DNA of 64,000 nucleotides from a bacterium. GTDB taxonomy: Bacteria > Acidobacteriota > Thermoanaerobaculia > Multivoradales > JAHEKO01. The notes under the pieces are model-generated. The model was not told the DNA's origin. It searched no databases and saw only the letters and a list, made by a program, of their open reading frames with translations. Position numbers and translations under genes: made by a program. This document shows, piece by piece, positions 31,546 to 40,721 of this stretch. Where the stretch lies: positions 1 through 64,000 of the forward strand of contig JAAENP010000200.1 in NCBI GenBank assembly GCA_024224155.1, given 5' to 3'. Position 1 is the stretch's first letter. Every line of letters starts with the position of its first letter.

Positions 31546-32502
31546 ATGAAGGTCATCGAGCACCTGGACCGTGCCAAGGGTCCGCTGATCAGTTTCGAGA
31601 TCATTCCACCGCTACGCGGTGGGAACCTGCAGAAACTTCTGCGCCTGATCGAGGATCTGGCGAAGTACAGGCCGCCCTTCATCGACATCACCAGCCACTC
31701 GGCCCAGGTGGTCTATCACGAGACTCGGGACGGCATCCGGCGCGTGATCAAGCGCAAGCGGCCGGGCACGCTCGGCCTTTGCGCTCTGGTCCAAAACAAG
31801 TACGAGACCGATGCGGTGCCGCACGTGCTGTGCGAGGGATTCACGCGCGAGGAGACCGAGGACTTCTTGATCGAGCTCAAGTACCTGGGTATCGACAACG
31901 TGCTGGCGATCAAGGGGGACGACATCGGTTTCAAGAAACCGCTCCAGCCCGGGCGCAGCGTCAACGACTATGCGGTGGACCTGGTGACTCAGATCGCCGA
32001 GATGAATCGAGGCAACTATCTGGAGGGTGAGATTCTCCTCGACGCCGAGCCCTCGAACTTCTGTGTCGGCGTTGCCGGCTATCCGGAGAAGCACTTCGAA
32101 GCACCCAATCTGGACAGCGATATCCGCCGGGTAAAGGCCAAGGTCGACGCCGGGGGCGAATACATCGTCACCCAGATGTTCTTCAACAACGAGCACTACT
32201 TCAACTACGTAGAAAAGTGCCGTGCGGCCGGCATCACCGTTCCGATCATCCCCGGGCTCAAGGTCCTGACCACTCGAACTCATATCAAGAGCCTGCCGAG
32301 TTTCTTTCACTGCGATATCCCCGCGGAGCTCGCGGACGCGGTCGAAGCCGCGGAGTCCGGCGCGGAGGTTCTCGAGGCGGGGGTCGATTGGGCGCGTCGT
32401 CAGACCGAAGAACTGCTCAACCGGGGCGTGCCTTCGGTCCATTTCTACGTCATGCAGAGCTCGAAGGCGGTCTCCATGCTGCTCGATGGGCTCCACGTCT
32501 GA
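31546..32502 (+). CDS. metF: 5,10-methylenetetrahydrofolate reductase
   Basis: MetF reduces methylene-THF to methyl-THF, the methyl donor for MetH, using FAD in a TIM barrel. The conserved amino-terminal glutamate is present in SFEIIPPLRGG, replacing the E. coli FEFFPP form. Family blocks IDITSHSAQVVYHETRDG, KRKRPGTLGLCALVQNKY, HVLCEGFTREETEDFLIEL and NVLAIKGDD follow. PGLKVLTTRTHIKSLPSFF and YVMQSSKAV close the fold. This longer 318-residue variety is the one found in Bacteroidetes and relatives. It lies directly upstream of the riboswitch-controlled metH, completing the methionine-forming methyl branch. Confidence 0.96.
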   Translation: MKVIEHLDRAKGPLISFEIIPPLRGGNLQKLLRLIEDLAKYRPPFIDITSHSAQVVYHETRDGIRRVIKRKRPGTLGLCALVQNKYETDAVPHVLCEGFTREETEDFLIELKYLGIDNVLAIKGDDIGFKKPLQPGRSVNDYAVDLVTQIAEMNRGNYLEGEILLDAEPSNFCVGVAGYPEKHFEAPNLDSDIRRVKAKVDAGGEYIVTQMFFNNEHYFNYVEKCRAAGITVPIIPGLKVLTTRTHIKSLPSFFHCDIPAELADAVEAAESGAEVLEAGVDWARRQTEELLNRGVPSVHFYVMQSSKAVSMLLDGLHV

Positions 32503-32513
32503 GCGCCCGGCAG

Positions 32514-32543
32514 TTGACACCTCTTTCGGCCCTGGGCTAGGCT
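32514..32543 (+). promoter_or_regulatory. sigma70-type promoter of metH
   Basis: A perfect TTGACA (32514-32519) is followed after 18 nt by TAGGCT (32538-32543). Transcription would start about 32550, exactly at the beginning of the riboswitch aptamer. The -35 lies a few bases after the metF stop codon, so metH can be transcribed independently of metF. Confidence 0.7.
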
Positions 32544-32550
32544 CCCGATT

Positions 32551-32649
32551 GCATCAGGAGTGGTTCGGTTGACAAGGCCGGACGCGGCAACCTGGGACGG
32601 ACACCCAAGGTGCCATCTCGCTCGGAACGAAAGAACAGAGCGGGGATGC
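32551..32649 (+). ncRNA. SAM riboswitch (SAM-I/IV clan) upstream of metH
   Basis: The aptamer has the SAM-clan core: ATCAGGAG, then GCGGCAACCTGGG paired across a loop with CCCAAGGTGCCA. P1 is GCATC (32551-32555) with GATGC (32645-32649). P2 is GTTCGG with CCGGAC, too short for a kink-turn. P3 is CCTGGG with CCCAAGG and P4 is CTCGCTC with GAGCGGG. Lack of a kink-turn in P2 together with a P4 after P3 points to the SAM-I/IV-variant group rather than classical SAM-I. The start coincides with the predicted transcription start. It would sense S-adenosylmethionine and control metH. Assignment rests on core motifs and pairing read by eye, not on a covariance-model search. Confidence 0.82.
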
Positions 32650-32691
32650 GGTCGCCGGAAGGCGGCAACGAACTGTCCGGCGGTCAAATTG

Positions 32692-32728
32692 ATCCGCTTC
32701 GTGATGCACGAAGCGGATTTGTTGTATT
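32692..32728 (+). terminator. intrinsic terminator/attenuator of the metH leader
   Basis: A perfect 12-bp stem (ATCCGCTTCGTG at 32692-32703 with CACGAAGCGGAT at 32707-32718) closed by a 3-nt loop is followed by a U-rich stretch to 32728. It sits between the aptamer and the metH Shine-Dalgarno. The segment AGCGGGGAT (32639-32647), which is the 3' side of P4 and P1, can pair with the terminator's ATCCGCT arm with a 2-nt bulge, giving an antiterminator when SAM is absent. Confidence 0.75.
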
Positions 32729-32753
32729 GACCTAGCACTTCAGGAAGGTCCCG

Positions 32754-35700
32754 ATGAGTGAACAGAAACACAGCGTTCCGGTGCAGAGCGACCGGGAGAC
32801 ACGTACGGCGGCTCTGCTGGATGCCTTGGACGAGCGCATTCTGGTTTTGGACGGCGCTACCGGCACGGCGCTGCAGGTCGAGAACCTGACCGCCGCGGAC
32901 TTTGGTGGCGTCGATCTCGAGGGCTGCAACGAGAACCTGTGTGCGGTCCGGCCCGACGTCGTCGAGCGGTTGCACGAGACCTATCTAAAGGCCGGAGCGG
33001 ACATTGTTGAAACCAACTCCTTCGGCGGCACGCCGCTGGTGCTTGCCGAGTATGGACTGGCCGACCGGGCCTTCGAGCTCAACCGACGCTCCGCCGAGCT
33101 GGCGCGCGCGGCGTGTGCGCGCTTCGACGAGGCCGGTCGCCTGCGCTTCGTGTGTGGCTCGATGGGTCCGACGACCAAAGCGATCTCGGTCACCGGCGGG
33201 GTGACCTTCGAGGAGTTGATCGAGCATTTTCGCGTCCAGGCGCTGGGGCTCATGGCCGGCGGTGCCGACTACCTGCTTCTCGAGACCTGTCAGGACACGA
33301 GCAATGTCAAGGCCGGAATCGTCGGTATCGACCGTGCCATGGCGGAGGCAGGTTGGGAGATCCCGGTGGCGGTCTCGGTGACCATCGAGACCACTGGAAC
33401 GATGCTCGCCGGGCAGGACGCCGAGGCTTTGGCGATTTCGCTGCTGCATCGCGATCTGCTCTACATCGGGCTCAACTGCGCGACCGGGCCCGAGTTGATG
33501 ACCGAGCATCTGCGGACACTGTCCGAGCTGTCCAGGAGCCGCGTCGCCTGTGTGCCCAACGCCGGTCTTCCCGACGAGGAAGGGATCTATCATCAGGGCC
33601 CGGACCATTTCGTCGAGGTGTTCGGGCGGTTTCTCGGTCACGGCTGGTTGAACCTGGTTGGCGGCTGTTGCGGTACCACGCCGGCGCACGTGACGGCGCT
33701 TTCGGAGCTGGTCCGAGACCGCCGGCCGCAGATCCCTGCGGTCCATCAGCGCAGCCTCGTCTCGGGTATCGAGGGCGTTGAGCTCACTGCCGACAACCGG
33801 CCGCTCTTCGTGGGCGAGCGTACCAACGTTCTCGGCAGCCGAAAGTTCAAGCGGTTGATTGCCGAGGGCGAGTTCGAGGCCGCCGCCGAGGTTGGTAGGG
33901 CCCAGGTCAAGGGCGGGGCGCAGGTGATCGACATCTGCATGCAGGACCCCGATCGTGACGAGGTGGCCGACATGGAGGCGCTGCTCGATCGTGTCGTTCG
34001 CCTGGTCAAGGTGCCGCTGATGATCGACTCGACCGATGCCAAGGTGATGGAGCGGGCGCTCGAGTACTGCCAGGGCAAGGCGATCCTCAATTCGATCAAC
34101 CTGGAGGACGGCCGCAACCGTTTCGAAGAGGTCGTGCCGCTGGCTCGGCGCTTCGGCGCGGCGTTGATCGTGGGCACGATCGACGGGAGCGGCATGGCGG
34201 TCACCGTGGAGCGCAAGCTGGAGGTGGCTCGGAGAAGCTACGAGATCCTGACCGAGGAGTTCTGCATTGCTCCGGAGGACATTTGGTGGGATGCGTTGGT
34301 GTTCCCGTGCGGCACGGGGGACGAGACCTACATCGGCTCGGCGAATCTGACCATCGAGGGGGTCAGGGCCCTCAAGGCCGAGTTCCCGCTGACCAAGACC
34401 ATCCTCGGCATCTCGAACGTCAGCTTCGGGCTTCCGATCAGCGGCCGCGAGGTTTTGAACTCGGTGTTCCTCCATCATTCGACCCAAGCCGGTCTCGATG
34501 CAGCGATTGTCAACACCCAGCGGCTGGCTCGTTACGCCGAGATCGCCGACGAAGAGAGGAAGCTCGCCGATTCGTTGATCTACCTCGAGCCCGGCGACAT
34601 CGGGGCCGCCGATCAGGCCGTGGCCGACTTTGCGGCGCACTTCCGCGGTCGCAAATCCGCGATCGAGACGGTCTCGCGAACCGATCTGGCGCTCGACGAG
34701 CGCCTCTCACGGGCCGTGATCGAAGGCTCGAAGGAAGGCCTTGCGGAAGACATCACGGAAGCCCTCGATGACGACCGGTGGCCGACACCGCTCGACATCG
34801 TCAACGGTCCGCTCATGGGCGGTATGGCCGAAGTGGGCAGACTCTTTAACGACAACGAGTTGATCGTGGCCGAGGTGCTGCAGAGCGCCGAGGTCATAAA
34901 GGCGGCGGTGGCGCAACTCGAGCCGCATATGGAAAAGACCGACCGGTCCTCGCGGGGCAAGGTTCTTTTGGCGACGGTCAAGGGAGACGTTCACGACATC
35001 GGCAAGAACCTGGTCGAGATCGTGCTCGCGAACAACGGCTTCGAGGTGGTCAACCTGGGTATCCGTGTGCCCAGCGAGCAACTGATTCAGGCCGCCCAGG
35101 AGCACCGGCCCGACGTCATCGGGCTCTCGGGCCTCCTGGTCAAGAGCGCGCAGCAGATGGTGCTGACCGCGGGCGACCTGAGGGACGTCGAGATCGATGC
35201 GGATCTCTTGGTTGGCGGCGCGGCCCTGACCCGGCGCTTCACTCATCTCAAGATCGCGCCCCAGTACGGCGGTCTTTGCACCTATGCCAAGGACGCGATG
35301 CATGGTCTCGATCTGGTCGAGCGTCTCACCAACAAGGCCAAGCGCCCGGCGCTCGAAGCGAGCGTTGCCGAGTTCATCGCCAAGGACAGGGAAGGCCCTG
35401 AGGTAAAGGTGCGCCAGAGTGCGGGGGCGACTTCCACGCAACGCAGCTCGGCAATTCGTTCCGAGGTCGACGTACCGGAGCCGCCGGATCTTCAGAGGCA
35501 TACGGAAGACCTCGACCTCGACGAAGTCTGGGAGGAGCTCAATCCCCAGATGCTCTTCGGCAAGCACTTGGGGATCAAGGGCTCGGTCCGGCGACTCGCG
35601 GCACAGGGCGACGCCAAGCTCGCCAAGCTCGAAGCCATTGTCGACGATCTCAGACTCGAGGCTCGGAACGGAGCGATGACGGCGCGCGGCGTATGGCAGT

Positions 35701-36242
35701 TCTTCTCGGCTCGAACCGAAGGCAACACGATTCGGCTCTTCGAGCCGGACTCGGACAAGCCGGTGGCGGAGTGGGAGTTCCCTCGCCAGGCCGGAATCGA
35801 TGGTCTTTGCCTTTCGGACTACGTTCTCGAACGCGACCATGTCGGTCTGTTCGTCACCACCGCCGGTGAGGGCGTCCGCGACCGGGTCGAAGCCTGGAAG
35901 CTAGAGGGCGAGTACTTGAGAAGCCATGCCTTTGCGGCATTGGCGGTGGAAACCGCCGAGGCCGCGGCCGAGCTCCTGCACAAGCGCCTGCGGGCGGCCT
36001 GGGGCTTTCCGGATTCCGAAGACTTCACGCCGCGCGATCGTTTCTCGAATCGCTACCGGGGCTGCCGCTACAGCTTCGGCTATCCGGCGTGTCCGGATCT
36101 CTCGGGCCAGCGGCAGCTCTTCGAGGTGCTGCGCCCGGAGGAGATCGGGGTGGAATTGACCGAGGGCGACATGATGGACCCGGAGGCGAGCGTTTCGGCG
36201 CTGGTGTTTCATCACCCGGACGCGAAGTACTTCGGGGCGTAA
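32754..36242 (+). CDS. metH: cobalamin-dependent methionine synthase
   Basis: MetH transfers methyl from methyl-THF to homocysteine through cobalamin. All four modules are present in 1162 residues. The homocysteine domain has zinc cysteines in GLNCATGPEL (near 241) and GGCCGTTP (near 304-305). The pterin domain begins NVLGSRKFKRL and has VIDICMQDPDRDEV. The cap and B12 domain carries KGDVHDIGKN, the DxHxxG cobalt-ligand motif near 745. The reactivation domain has RYRGCRYSFGYPACPD near 1100. AGGAAGG precedes the ATG by five bases. The gene is preceded by a SAM riboswitch and terminator, so excess SAM should shut it off. The stop TAA is immediately followed by a hairpin repeat. Confidence 0.98.
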   Translation: MSEQKHSVPVQSDRETRTAALLDALDERILVLDGATGTALQVENLTAADFGGVDLEGCNENLCAVRPDVVERLHETYLKAGADIVETNSFGGTPLVLAEYGLADRAFELNRRSAELARAACARFDEAGRLRFVCGSMGPTTKAISVTGGVTFEELIEHFRVQALGLMAGGADYLLLETCQDTSNVKAGIVGIDRAMAEAGWEIPVAVSVTIETTGTMLAGQDAEALAISLLHRDLLYIGLNCATGPELMTEHLRTLSELSRSRVACVPNAGLPDEEGIYHQGPDHFVEVFGRFLGHGWLNLVGGCCGTTPAHVTALSELVRDRRPQIPAVHQRSLVSGIEGVELTADNRPLFVGERTNVLGSRKFKRLIAEGEFEAAAEVGRAQVKGGAQVIDICMQDPDRDEVADMEALLDRVVRLVKVPLMIDSTDAKVMERALEYCQGKAILNSINLEDGRNRFEEVVPLARRFGAALIVGTIDGSGMAVTVERKLEVARRSYEILTEEFCIAPEDIWWDALVFPCGTGDETYIGSANLTIEGVRALKAEFPLTKTILGISNVSFGLPISGREVLNSVFLHHSTQAGLDAAIVNTQRLARYAEIADEERKLADSLIYLEPGDIGAADQAVADFAAHFRGRKSAIETVSRTDLALDERLSRAVIEGSKEGLAEDITEALDDDRWPTPLDIVNGPLMGGMAEVGRLFNDNELIVAEVLQSAEVIKAAVAQLEPHMEKTDRSSRGKVLLATVKGDVHDIGKNLVEIVLANNGFEVVNLGIRVPSEQLIQAAQEHRPDVIGLSGLLVKSAQQMVLTAGDLRDVEIDADLLVGGAALTRRFTHLKIAPQYGGLCTYAKDAMHGLDLVERLTNKAKRPALEASVAEFIAKDREGPEVKVRQSAGATSTQRSSAIRSEVDVPEPPDLQRHTEDLDLDEVWEELNPQMLFGKHLGIKGSVRRLAAQGDAKLAKLEAIVDDLRLEARNGAMTARGVWQFFSARTEGNTIRLFEPDSDKPVAEWEFPRQAGIDGLCLSDYVLERDHVGLFVTTAGEGVRDRVEAWKLEGEYLRSHAFAALAVETAEAAAELLHKRLRAAWGFPDSEDFTPRDRFSNRYRGCRYSFGYPACPDLSGQRQLFEVLRPEEIGVELTEGDMMDPEASVSALVFHHPDAKYFGA

Positions 36243-36294: not shown

Positions 36295-36332
36295 GTCCTG
36301 TAGCGGTCGACCTCCGTGTCGACCGCTAGGAC
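36295..36332. terminator. palindrome between convergent metH and ABC-F genes
   Basis: AGCGGTCGAC (36302-36311) pairs with GTCGACCGCT (36318-36327) around a 6-nt loop, extended by GTCCT / AGGAC arms with a 2-nt bulge. The ABC-F stop codon lies inside the right arm. Its position between convergent genes suggests a bidirectional terminator, though T-tracts are absent; it could also be another repeat family. Confidence 0.5.
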
Positions 36333-38239
36333 TCCGACTCGAGCTCTTCGAGCTCGGTCTCGACCTTCTCCCAGTCCGTGATCATCTCTTCGACCTTGGT
36401 CTTCAGATCGGCCTGCTCGGTCTCGAGCTTCTTGACCTGCTTGGGCGGCGTTTTGTCGAAGAACGTGGGGTCGCAGAAGAGCTCGTTGATCTCGTTGACC
36501 CGTTCTTCTTTCTTCTCGATCTCCTCGGTCAGCCGATCGCGTCTCTTGGTCAACTCACGTTTGCGTTTGGGATTGGCCGGCGTCGCGGATTTCGCCTTCT
36601 GACGCATTCCCTTGCGCTTGCTCTGGCGGAGGACGGCGTCGGCATCCAGGTGGTCGTCGCCGCAGTCGGTGACGTACTCCTCGTAGGTGCCCCGGTAGTC
36701 GCGAATGCCGTTGGGCGAGATCTCGACGATCCGATCGGCCAGTTGGGCGACGAACCAGCGATCGTGAGACACGACGATCAGGGTACCCGGATAGTCGCGA
36801 AGTCCGTGCACAAGAGCCTCGATGGCCTCCAGGTCGAGGTGGTTGGTGGGTTCGTCCAGAACCAGCACGTTGGGTTTCTCGACCGCCAACCTGGCGAATA
36901 CCAAACGGGCGGCCTCGCCGCCCGAAAGCGCTCCCAGCCGCTTTTCGACTTCCTCCTTGCTGAACAAAACCGCCGCCAGCTGGCCGCGCACGAAACCAAT
37001 CGGCTCGCCGGGGCAGACGTCCCAGAGCCAGCTTTCGACCGTCGCCTTCTCGGGCTGGAGGAGCTCGTGGTGGTCCTGGGCGAAGTAACCTGGGCGGGCT
37101 TCGTAGCCCCATTCGGCCGAGCCCCCGTCGGCGTCGAGCTCACCCATGGCGATCTTCAGCAGTGTCGACTTGCCGATACCGTTGGGGCCGATCACGGCCA
37201 GGCGGTCACCGCGCTCGACCGTGAGCGAGACGTCTTCGAGGACCTGGTTGTCGCCGAAAGCCTTGGAGACGCCCTCGATCTTGAGCGCCTCACGCCCGCT
37301 CGGGCGTTCCTGATCGAAACGAAAGCGAGGATAGCGCCGTGAGCTCATCGGCAGGGATTCGAGCACGATCCGGTCGAGGATCTTCTGCTTGCTCTTGGCC
37401 TGCCTGGCCTTGGTCGCTTTCGCGCGAAAGCGATCGACGAACGCCTGGTGATGGGCGATCTCCTTCTCGCGCTTGTCGATGTCTTTCTCTTTGCGCTCCC
37501 GCTGGGCAACCTTCTGTTCGACGAACGACGTGTAGTCGCCCTTGTAGAGGGTCACCGTCTGGTAATCGACGTCCAGGATGTGGGTCGAGACGTTGTCGAG
37601 AAAGCGATGGTCGTGCGAGATCACCACCACGATTCCGGGGAACGACTGCAGGAACTTCTCCAACCACCGGATCGAGAGGATGTCGAGATGGTTGGTCGGC
37701 TCGTCGAGGAGCAGGGCCTCGGGTTGGGCGGCAAGCGTCTGGGCGAGAAGCACACGCAGCTTGAAGCCACCCGAAAGGGTCGACAGAGGTTGCGAGTGGA
37801 GCTCGGTCTCGATGCCCAGTCCTTCCAGGATCTCGCCCGCTCGCGCCTCGGCGCTATAGCCGTCGTGGCGGAGGATGACGTCCTCGAGCTCGGAGTAGCG
37901 CTCGGCGTCGAAGCTCTTTTCGGCGGCTTCGAGGATGCGCTCCTTCTCGGCCATCGCCTTCCAGAGGTCTTCGTTCCCCATCAGAGCCACGTCGAGGATC
38001 CGCTCCTGCTCGAACGAGAAGTGATCCTGGCGAAGAATGCCGAGTCGCAGTCTCTTGGGAATCGAGATCGTGCCTTCGCTCGGAGGCTCTTCGTTCGAGA
38101 GGATCTTCAGCAGAGTCGACTTGCCCGAGCCGTTGGCGCCCACCAGCCCGTAGCTCTCGCCGGGGTTGAGCTGAAAGGCAACACCCTCGAAGAGAATCTG
38201 GGCGCCGAAGATCTTTCCCAGATTCGAGACGGAGATCAT
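36326..38239 (-). CDS. ABC-F family ATPase
   Basis: The soluble protein has two ATP-binding cassettes and no membrane spans. Walker A motifs are GANGSGKST and GPNGIGKST; signatures are LSGGFKLRVLLAQ and LSGGEAARLVFA; Walker B ends are LLLDEPTNHLD and LVLDEPTNHLD. A charged inter-domain linker of the ABC-F type and a C-terminal coiled coil (KRKRELTKRRDRLTEEIEKK) are present. ABC-F proteins act on ribosomes, in translation or antibiotic protection; the first domain start (ISVSNLGKIFGAQILFEGVAF) resembles YbiT. I chose the ATG at 38239; upstream sequence overlaps the divergent PBP gene. A TATCCT box lies 9 nt before the ATG. Confidence 0.94.
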   Translation of the reverse strand: MISVSNLGKIFGAQILFEGVAFQLNPGESYGLVGANGSGKSTLLKILSNEEPPSEGTISIPKRLRLGILRQDHFSFEQERILDVALMGNEDLWKAMAEKERILEAAEKSFDAERYSELEDVILRHDGYSAEARAGEILEGLGIETELHSQPLSTLSGGFKLRVLLAQTLAAQPEALLLDEPTNHLDILSIRWLEKFLQSFPGIVVVISHDHRFLDNVSTHILDVDYQTVTLYKGDYTSFVEQKVAQRERKEKDIDKREKEIAHHQAFVDRFRAKATKARQAKSKQKILDRIVLESLPMSSRRYPRFRFDQERPSGREALKIEGVSKAFGDNQVLEDVSLTVERGDRLAVIGPNGIGKSTLLKIAMGELDADGGSAEWGYEARPGYFAQDHHELLQPEKATVESWLWDVCPGEPIGFVRGQLAAVLFSKEEVEKRLGALSGGEAARLVFARLAVEKPNVLVLDEPTNHLDLEAIEALVHGLRDYPGTLIVVSHDRWFVAQLADRIVEISPNGIRDYRGTYEEYVTDCGDDHLDADAVLRQSKRKGMRQKAKSATPANPKRKRELTKRRDRLTEEIEKKEERVNEINELFCDPTFFDKTPPKQVKKLETEQADLKTKVEEMITDWEKVETELEELESES

Positions 38240-38248
38240 GGGGCGCGG

Positions 38249-38254
38249 AGGATA
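38249..38254 (-). promoter_or_regulatory. -10-like box (TATCCT) 9 nt before the ABC-F start
   Basis: TATCCT on the minus strand sits 9 nt before the ATG, with no Shine-Dalgarno in between. It is one of the start-adjacent boxes seen repeatedly in the window. Confidence 0.3.
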
Positions 38255-38300
38255 GCACGCCCAAAACCCGTGGCGTGGATGTTGCAGTTCCAGGCTCTCG

Positions 38301-40721
38301 ATGGCGAAGCGACGTCGACGGCGAAGCCGTAAGCGGCGCAAAAGGAAGTCGCTTGCGCAGGCCTTTTCCGGCTACCGGCGCGCTATTCTCGCCGCTTCGG
38401 TCGTGTTGGTGGGGCTCGGCCTGCTCTGGACGCTATGGCCTTTTTGGCAGCTTTCGGCCCGGCTCGACCAGGCGCGAGCGAGCCGGCCCTCCCGTCTGTA
38501 CGGTCGTCCGCTCTCCGTAGCGATCGGTTCGGTGGTCCGAACGCGGGACTTGACCGGCGAGCTCGATCGTCTGGGATATCGCGAGGTCGAGAGCGCGCCG
38601 GCGCGAGCCGGAGAGTTCCGGAACGCCCCAGGAGCTCTCACGGTCTTTGTTCGTGAGCGTCCCACGCCGGCCGGCTGGCGGTCTCCGGGCGTTCTCGAGA
38701 CTCGATTTCGCTCGGGCCGGGTTTCCGCGATTACATGGCAGGGGCAAGCGGTAGAGAGCGCTTCGCTCGAAGCCCCGATCCTGGCCAGTTTCGTCGGCTC
38801 CGATCGCCGCGAGAAGCGGCCGATCGCGCTCGCCGAGGTACCGGACCAGTTCGTAGAGGCGGTTCTTGCGGCCGAAGATGCGTCGTTCTACAAGCACGCC
38901 GGGCTTTCACTGCGCGGCATCGGCCGGGCGACTTGGGCCAACCTCCGCGGCCTCGAGCTGCAGCAGGGCGGCAGCACGCTCACGCAACAGCTGGTCAAGA
39001 ACATCTTCCTAACCCATGAGCGCACCTTGGCGCGCAAGCTGCGCGAAGTCGTGCTCGCGATCTTGGTCGATCTGCGCTACGAGAAAGAAGAGATTCTCAG
39101 CGGCTATCTGAACGAGATCTACTGGGGTTCGAGCAGCACGGTCAATCTGATCGGGGTTGGAGCGGCTTCCTGGGCCTACTTTGGCAAGCACCCGTCGGAG
39201 CTCGATCTTTGCGAATCTGCCTTGCTTGCCGGGATGATCCATTCCCCGGGCAGCTATTCCCTGCGCAAGTCGCCGGAACGGGCGATCGAACGGCGCAACT
39301 GGGTGCTCACGCGCATGAAGAGTCTGGGTTGGTTGAGCCCGGAAGAAGCCGAACGAACCGCGAGCCGGGGGCTGTGTTACAGCCCGCACGCGGTACCGGT
39401 GAGAAGCGCGCCGTACTTCCTCGATCTGGCCGCTGCCGAGGCCGAGCGACGCTTCGGTCTCGATCGCCTCGATTCGGCTGGATACGTGCTGCTGTCGACA
39501 CTCGATCATCGCAGTCAGAGAGCTGCCGAAGAGGCGGTTGCCTGGGGGCTCGAAGCCCTCGAGAAGGGCTGGGAGAAGTCACGTGGCCGGCAGGGAGAGC
39601 TGCAGGCCGCCCTGGTGTCGATCGAGCCGGAGACCGGCGAGATCCTGGCCTATCTTGGTGGCCGTGATTACCGCGCCAGCCAGTTCGATCGAGCGTCTCT
39701 GGCCCGGCGGCAGGCGGGAAGTGCCTTCAAGCCGATCGTTTACGCTGCGGCTTTCGAAAAGGGTACGGTGTCGCCAGCGTCGTTCGTCGAAGACGCCCCC
39801 TTGACGGTATTGCTGGCCAACCGCCGCTGGTCGCCCCAAAACTCCGACGGGGATTTCCGCGGCTGGGTTACGGTTCGCACCGCGCTCGAGCGCAGCCTGA
39901 ACATACCGACCGTGCGCGTGGCTCTCGACGTTGGGCTGCCCGCAATCGTCGAGACCGCCCACGGCTTGGGCGTCCAGACGCCGCTAGAGGAAGTTCCGGC
40001 GCTGGCGTTGGGGGCGTTCGAAGTCACGCCGCTCGACCTGGCCACGGTCTATGCGACCCTTGCCGCCGGCGGCGTACGCTCCAGCGCCCACGCGCTGCGT
40101 GGAGTTCTGGACTCGGCCGGTCAACCGATCGGTGGGACGCCGTTGCCGAAACCCGTGCGGGCGCTGAGCGCCGAAGCCACATTCGTTCTGACCAGTGTTT
40201 TGCGTGGAGTCGTCGAGCAGGGCACCGGAGCGGGCGTGCGTCGGCAGGGACTTCTTGACCCGGTCGCCGGCAAGACCGGCACCACCAACGATCGCCGCGA
40301 CAGCTGGTTCGGGGGCTACTCGCCGGGCCGGGCGACCCTGGTCTGGGTGGGCTATGACGACAACTCGGCCACGCAGCTCTCGGGAGCCCGCGCGGCACTA
40401 CCGATCTGGACTCGGTTCACGTACAAGGTGCGCCCGGTCGGGGGGTACAGCGTGCCGGTACAGCCTCGCGGGGTGCTGACGGCGGTCATCGATCCTGCCA
40501 GCGGTCAGCTCGCGACCGGGGCCTGCCCGGATGTGATCACCGAGTTCTTCCTCGAGGACGATCTGCCGGAGCGCATTTGCCGGCTGCACGGTGACTGGCA
40601 GGACTGGAGCTCGACGGTGGTTGTGGGAGATCCCAACTGGCGCTTGCAGAGGCCGAAGCGGCGTCCTTGGCGCTGGCTGTCGAAGGTTTTCGGCAAGAAG
40701 CGTGGCGGCAAGAAGCCATAG
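38301..40721 (+). CDS. mrcB: bifunctional class A penicillin-binding protein (PBP1b-like)
   Basis: This inner-membrane enzyme polymerises and cross-links peptidoglycan. A very basic cytoplasmic start (RRRRRSRKRRKRK) leads to a single span (AAVVLVG-type helix at about 28-50). A UB2H-like region reading GELDRLGYREVESAP and GALTVFVRERP follows. The GT51 domain has EDASFYKHAGLSLRG and QGGSTLTQQLVKN. The transpeptidase has SAFKP as SxxK (near 474), RSLNIPT as SxN and AGKTGTTND as KTG (near 657). About 800 residues fits PBP1b. It is divergent from the ABC-F gene by 61 bp and followed by a reversed copy of the hairpin repeat. Confidence 0.95.
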   Translation: MAKRRRRRSRKRRKRKSLAQAFSGYRRAILAASVVLVGLGLLWTLWPFWQLSARLDQARASRPSRLYGRPLSVAIGSVVRTRDLTGELDRLGYREVESAPARAGEFRNAPGALTVFVRERPTPAGWRSPGVLETRFRSGRVSAITWQGQAVESASLEAPILASFVGSDRREKRPIALAEVPDQFVEAVLAAEDASFYKHAGLSLRGIGRATWANLRGLELQQGGSTLTQQLVKNIFLTHERTLARKLREVVLAILVDLRYEKEEILSGYLNEIYWGSSSTVNLIGVGAASWAYFGKHPSELDLCESALLAGMIHSPGSYSLRKSPERAIERRNWVLTRMKSLGWLSPEEAERTASRGLCYSPHAVPVRSAPYFLDLAAAEAERRFGLDRLDSAGYVLLSTLDHRSQRAAEEAVAWGLEALEKGWEKSRGRQGELQAALVSIEPETGEILAYLGGRDYRASQFDRASLARRQAGSAFKPIVYAAAFEKGTVSPASFVEDAPLTVLLANRRWSPQNSDGDFRGWVTVRTALERSLNIPTVRVALDVGLPAIVETAHGLGVQTPLEEVPALALGAFEVTPLDLATVYATLAAGGVRSSAHALRGVLDSAGQPIGGTPLPKPVRALSAEATFVLTSVLRGVVEQGTGAGVRRQGLLDPVAGKTGTTNDRRDSWFGGYSPGRATLVWVGYDDNSATQLSGARAALPIWTRFTYKVRPVGGYSVPVQPRGVLTAVIDPASGQLATGACPDVITEFFLEDDLPERICRLHGDWQDWSSTVVVGDPNWRLQRPKRRPWRWLSKVFGKKRGGKKP

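Follow-up and report, generated by a model that had tools for sequence, protein, structure and literature searches.

The DNA analysed here, which we refer to as the window, is the whole 64,000-nt stretch of contig JAAENP010000200.1, from a bacterium of the Thermoanaerobaculia (Acidobacteriota). We are concerned with the gap of about 250 nt between its metF and metH genes, which is the place of a promoter, an aptamer and a terminator (32514-32720). The MetH protein is 84% identical to the MetH of a Thermoanaerobaculia MAG. Downstream of metH there are open reading frames at 36326-38341 (- strand) and 38301-40721 (+ strand), the translations of which resemble an ABC-F ATPase and a class A penicillin-binding protein. 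The features of the locus, all on the + strand, are as follows.

31546..32502, +: metF, methylenetetrahydrofolate reductase, upstream of the switch and outside it (TIGR00676, E 8e-83, just under its cut-off)
32514..32519, +: -35 box TTGACA, from sequence
32538..32543, +: -10 box TAGGCT, from sequence and conservation across leaders
32551..32563, +: putative switching strand GCAUCAGGAGUGG, comprising the P1 5' strand, J1/2 and the start of P2, able to pair within the aptamer or with 32694-32707
32551-32555 with 32645-32649, +: P1 helix, GCAUC/GAUGC
32563-32570 with 32576-32583, +: P2, with no internal loop or kink-turn
32586..32614, +: P3 with the SAM-clan core GGCAACC...AAGGUGCC
32598..32603, +: PK-2 5' strand CGGACA, in L3
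32617-32623 with 32638-32644, +: P4
32651-32656 with 32661-32666, +: P5, with a GGAA loop
32674..32679, +: PK-2 3' strand UGUCCG
32692-32703 with 32707-32718, +: intrinsic terminator, a 12-bp stem with an AUG loop followed by UUUGUUGUAUUG
32694..32707, +: predicted antiterminator 3' strand CCGCUUCGUGAUGC, comprising terminator left arm and loop, pairing with 32551-32563
32742..32748, +: metH ribosome-binding site AGGAAGG, from sequence, outside the hairpins of the switch
32754..36242, +: metH, cobalamin-dependent methionine synthase, 1162 aa (TIGR02082, 1118.6 bits, passing the cut-off of 1010.85)

The TTGACA/TAGGCT promoter had already been pointed out in a preliminary description of this DNA, and comparison with relatives bears it out. 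In the window the spacer is 18 nt and TAGGCT ends 7 nt ahead of the first P1 base, and most of the 29 homologous Thermoanaerobaculia leaders that form our comparative sample have TTGAC, a spacer of 17-18 nt, TAnnnT and a gap of 6-8 nt to the first P1 base. A strict sigma-70 scan passed this promoter over, since no more than 3 of the 6 bases of TAGGCT agree with TATAAT, and the promoter call rests instead on conservation across leaders. Given the conserved spacing from promoter to P1, transcription probably begins right at the P1 5' strand, with a start site at about 32549-32551, that is at the first P1 base.

The element ahead of metH is a SAM-I/IV riboswitch aptamer, and is an addition to a known class. 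The check suggested earlier was to run the covariance models RF00162, RF00634 and RF01725, and only the last of these matches, below its cut-off. At Rfam gathering thresholds there are no matches in the window, but with relaxed thresholds and a 301-nt search RF01725 (SAM-I/IV) gives a full-length match at 32546-32682 with 39.0 bits and E 4.4e-5 (1.9e-4 in a genome-wide search), about 2 bits short of its gathering score of 41.1 bits, which is a detection threshold and not a structural feature. That cut-off was passed in 14 of the 147 genomes in our search for relatives. We also made a leave-genus-out covariance model from 14 leaders, all from genera other than that of the window, and this finds 32551-32679 with 98.9 bits (E 1.1e-17, genome-wide) as its sole match in the 5.7-Mb genome. 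In the search for relatives it matches 29 of 98 genomes.

The anatomy agrees with the assignment to the SAM-I/IV group that had been proposed from the absence of a kink-turn. P2 is a single helix of 8 pairs with a 5-nt loop, and has no internal loop, kink-turn or PK-1. The SAM-clan core is present as GCAUC..GAG and GGCAACC..AAGGUGCC in P1, J1/2 and P3, a P4 of 7 pairs lies between P3 and the P1 3' strand, and there are 6 pairs in the P5 hairpin and 6 in PK-2, which joins L3 to the 3' strand. An undivided P2, P4, P5 and PK-2, with no PK-1, is the SAM-I/IV layout (PMC6890682). Pairs are standard throughout P1 to P5, PK-2 and the 12-bp terminator, which bears out the P1 to P4 pairings and the perfect terminator stem noted earlier. 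The fold has a z-score of -4.6, with none of 200 shuffles equally stable. Among relatives both sides of P2, P4, P5 and PK-2 have undergone changes, including double changes in P4, compensatory changes in P5 and a G-C to A-U double change of PK-2 in two relatives, and 98.5% of cells in the leader alignment are paired, falling to 33-45% once the partners are slid.

With regard to known classes, the element resembles SAM-I/IV (RF01725; Weinberg 2010, PMC2864571) in its core, P1-P5 layout, uninterrupted P2, P4, PK-2 between L3 and the 3' side and association with methionine genes; it differs in scoring just under the curated cut-off and in a probable 5'-strand expression platform, which is discussed below. 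SAM-IV (RF00634) shares the core, P5 and PK-2 but has P2a/P2b with PK-1 and is without P4 (PMC6890682). We rejected membership of SAM-IV, as the RF00634 model gives no match at the aptamer, P4 is present and P2 is undivided. The terminator type of SAM-I (RF00162) has in common the SAM core, a SAM-stabilised P1, the terminator and antiterminator and OFF switching, but has a kink-turn in P2 and switches by the P1 3' strand, whereas the element ahead of metH would use the 5' strand with J1/2. Membership of SAM-I was likewise rejected, there being no RF00162 match in the whole genome, with an undivided P2 and a predicted 5'-strand antiterminator.

The number of SAM-I/IV aptamers per genome varies. 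The window's genome has one, and another Thermoanaerobaculia genome has four (G044, genus g24; C77, C176, C228 and C427). In the phylum of G498, which we take to be Pseudomonadota, there is a case of two aptamers within about 230 nt (L143 and L160, G754:C57:63617 and 63843) and one of three within 4 kb (G604:C57, 194, 2179 and 3752).

It is in the antiterminator that we differ from the preliminary description, which had AGCGGGGAT (32639-32647, the 3' side of P4 and P1) pairing with ATCCGCT in the terminator left arm (32692-32698), an arrangement like that of classical SAM-I. The complementarity is there, with 7 pairs, and P1-controlled riboswitches ordinarily switch by their P1 3' strand (PMC11477058), as do our SAM-I controls. 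However this pairing is worth -10.2 kcal/mol, as against -21.3 kcal/mol (with flanking bases) for CCGCUUCGUGAUGC (32694-32707) with the first 13 nt, GCAUCAGGAGUGG (32551-32563), which form 13 pairs with one bulge, a bulged G being required around J1/2 position 7 in the window leader. If the AGCGGGGAT pairing is forced the fold comes to -62.5, against -80.0 for the 5'-segment antiterminator, a cost of about 17 kcal/mol. Further, the P1 3' strand carries GAUGC, which repeats the GAUGC of the terminator loop and is not complementary to it, and in most of the 29 leaders (21 of 25 in a narrower comparison) the 5' segment pairs more strongly than the P4/P1-3' segment. We rejected this antiterminator, which is probably wrong, and a switch working through the P1/P4 3' strand is improbable.

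Folding of the growing window transcript shows how the 5'-segment antiterminator competes with the alternative state. For the transcript to 32707 the free MFE structure is the antiterminator, at -77.7 against -63.4 for the aptamer, and to 32718 it is still the antiterminator, at -80.0 against -74.9 for aptamer plus terminator, with PK-2 and ligand not counted. At 32728, the longest transcript folded, the MFE structure is aptamer plus terminator. With so little energy between the two states, timing and ligand would decide which of them prevails, and once the right arm is out the gap between -80.0 and -74.9 is within reach of the ligand energy. In the window leader the PK-2 3' strand is likewise drawn into the long antiterminator fold. 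The abstract of the 2014 report by Trausch on the SAM-I/IV crystal structure is said to give PK-2 a role in the switch.

In most of the 29 leaders the terminator left arm has its best aptamer partner, or nearly its best, in the 5' end, and the pairing is kept with compensatory changes across the set. Own 5' segments beat swapped ones in 20,000 of 20,000 permutations (-19.2 vs -16.8). With one leader per genus (17 genera) the mean p of the swap test is <0.001 for 13 nt, and 0.007, which is not extreme, when it is limited to positions 6-13. Positions 6 and 7 of J1/2, which have no partner within the aptamer, show covariation with the terminator (A-U/G-C/C-G), and in an alignment-free count position 6 is paired in 18 of 24 leaders, where 12.4 are expected (12 of 20,000 shuffles as good). 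When RNA up to the terminator loop is folded, 9-13 nt of the 5' segment lie on the terminator in 28 of the 29, and in most of them the completed terminator then wins. Two leaders, L010 and L026 (genus g21), have no clear complement between 5' segment and terminator. These leaders, at 1502, have a SAM-I/IV aptamer and a strong terminator, and possibly another platform design. By computation, then, one 5' strand has two conserved and mutually exclusive pairings.

We therefore have good reason to propose, from the sequence, that a SAM-I/IV riboswitch turns off metH transcription at high SAM by means of the 5'-strand antiterminator 32551-32563/32694-32707, and we regard this as very probable. The transcript would start at about the first P1 base. 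With SAM bound, GCAUC would be held in P1 and the terminator left arm left free, so that the 12-bp terminator could form and RNA polymerase would halt ahead of metH. In the absence of SAM the first 13 nt (P1 5' strand, J1/2 and start of P2) would pair with 32694-32707, and this 13-bp antiterminator would open P1 and P2 and block the terminator, allowing metH to be transcribed. The earlier suggestion that SAM-on means terminator-on ahead of metH is thus supported, the OFF direction, like SAM binding, the start site and co-transcriptional timing, being what we infer. The U-tract of the terminator is interrupted (UUUGUUGUAUUG), and this counts against the switch reading. Translational control of metH by the switch was considered and rejected, as the metH ribosome-binding site (32742-32748) lies outside the switch hairpins.

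It is very unlikely that the terminator is constitutive, for example ending metF transcripts, with the aptamer acting in some other way or being a relic. The terminator is indeed downstream of metF, but a conserved promoter and the aptamer precede it. In 28 of the 29 leaders folded, some of them ahead of metK and metF, its left arm and loop have remained complementary to the 5' strand of the aptamer, and the compensatory changes in P2, P4, P5 and PK-2 argue against a relic. That the ligand is a relative of SAM (SAH, spermidine), after the fashion of some SAM-clan variants already known, is hardly to be expected: the related SAM-I class does include variants that sense spermidine, but these are altered both in J1/2 and in the internal loop of P3, and often lie ahead of polyamine genes (PMC10853860), whereas GGCAACC/AAGGUGCC and GAG are kept here and the genes are metH, metF and metK, a context that fits SAM as the presumed ligand of the riboswitch that we propose.

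Among relatives the genes downstream of the switch, where identifiable, are mostly metH, with metF-metH in L020, L027 and L093 and metK in L005, L016 and L018. The observation that metF is outside the switch holds for the window and eight other loci, these nine sharing the order metF-switch-metH, but not for the three relatives with the order switch-metF-metH. The position of metF is thus a detail of the lineage and not a rule, and the separation of methyl supply from use that was read into it is a local arrangement only.

Outside the lineage, SAM-I/IV aptamers of other Acidobacteriota and of the phylum of G498 also have a complement of the 5' segment downstream. In comparisons of own with swapped segments 2 and 9 of 10,000 permutations respectively were as good, and none of 10,000 for the two together, and the control with reversed segments gave -11.0 vs -15.3. 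Here the complement mostly lies within the left arm of a hairpin, and inside that hairpin is a purine-rich ribosome-binding site or the start codon, as in L118, L127, L130, L149, L151 and L155. In contrast, in 11 of the 13 SAM-I leaders of Bacillota that served as a control it is the P1 3' strand that pairs more strongly. We think it somewhat more probable than otherwise that the whole SAM-I/IV class, and not this lineage alone, switches by the P1 5' strand with J1/2. The platform would then carry an element in which a complement of J1/2-P2 follows on a near-copy of GAUGC, the P1 3' strand. In Thermoanaerobaculia this element would be placed in the left arm of a terminator, and in other Acidobacteriota and the presumed Pseudomonadota in that of a hairpin by which the ribosome-binding site or start codon is hidden, so that the 5' end of the aptamer mimics that region.

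A 2024 review defines P1-controlled riboswitches by exchange of the P1 3' strand, and names SAM-I/IV among them (PMC11477058). The comparative evidence points to the opposite strand, starting at about the first transcribed base. A search of the literature for the exact wording "5 strand" or "5 side" of P1 together with antiterminator gave no match, and an expression platform with 5'-strand exchange has apparently not been described before. Switching by the 5' strand changes which bases should be mutated or probed. It would also alter co-transcriptional timing, as the switching strand is transcribed ahead of the partner for which it then has to wait, and a 5'-strand element would let one aptamer drive both terminators and hairpins that hide ribosome-binding sites.
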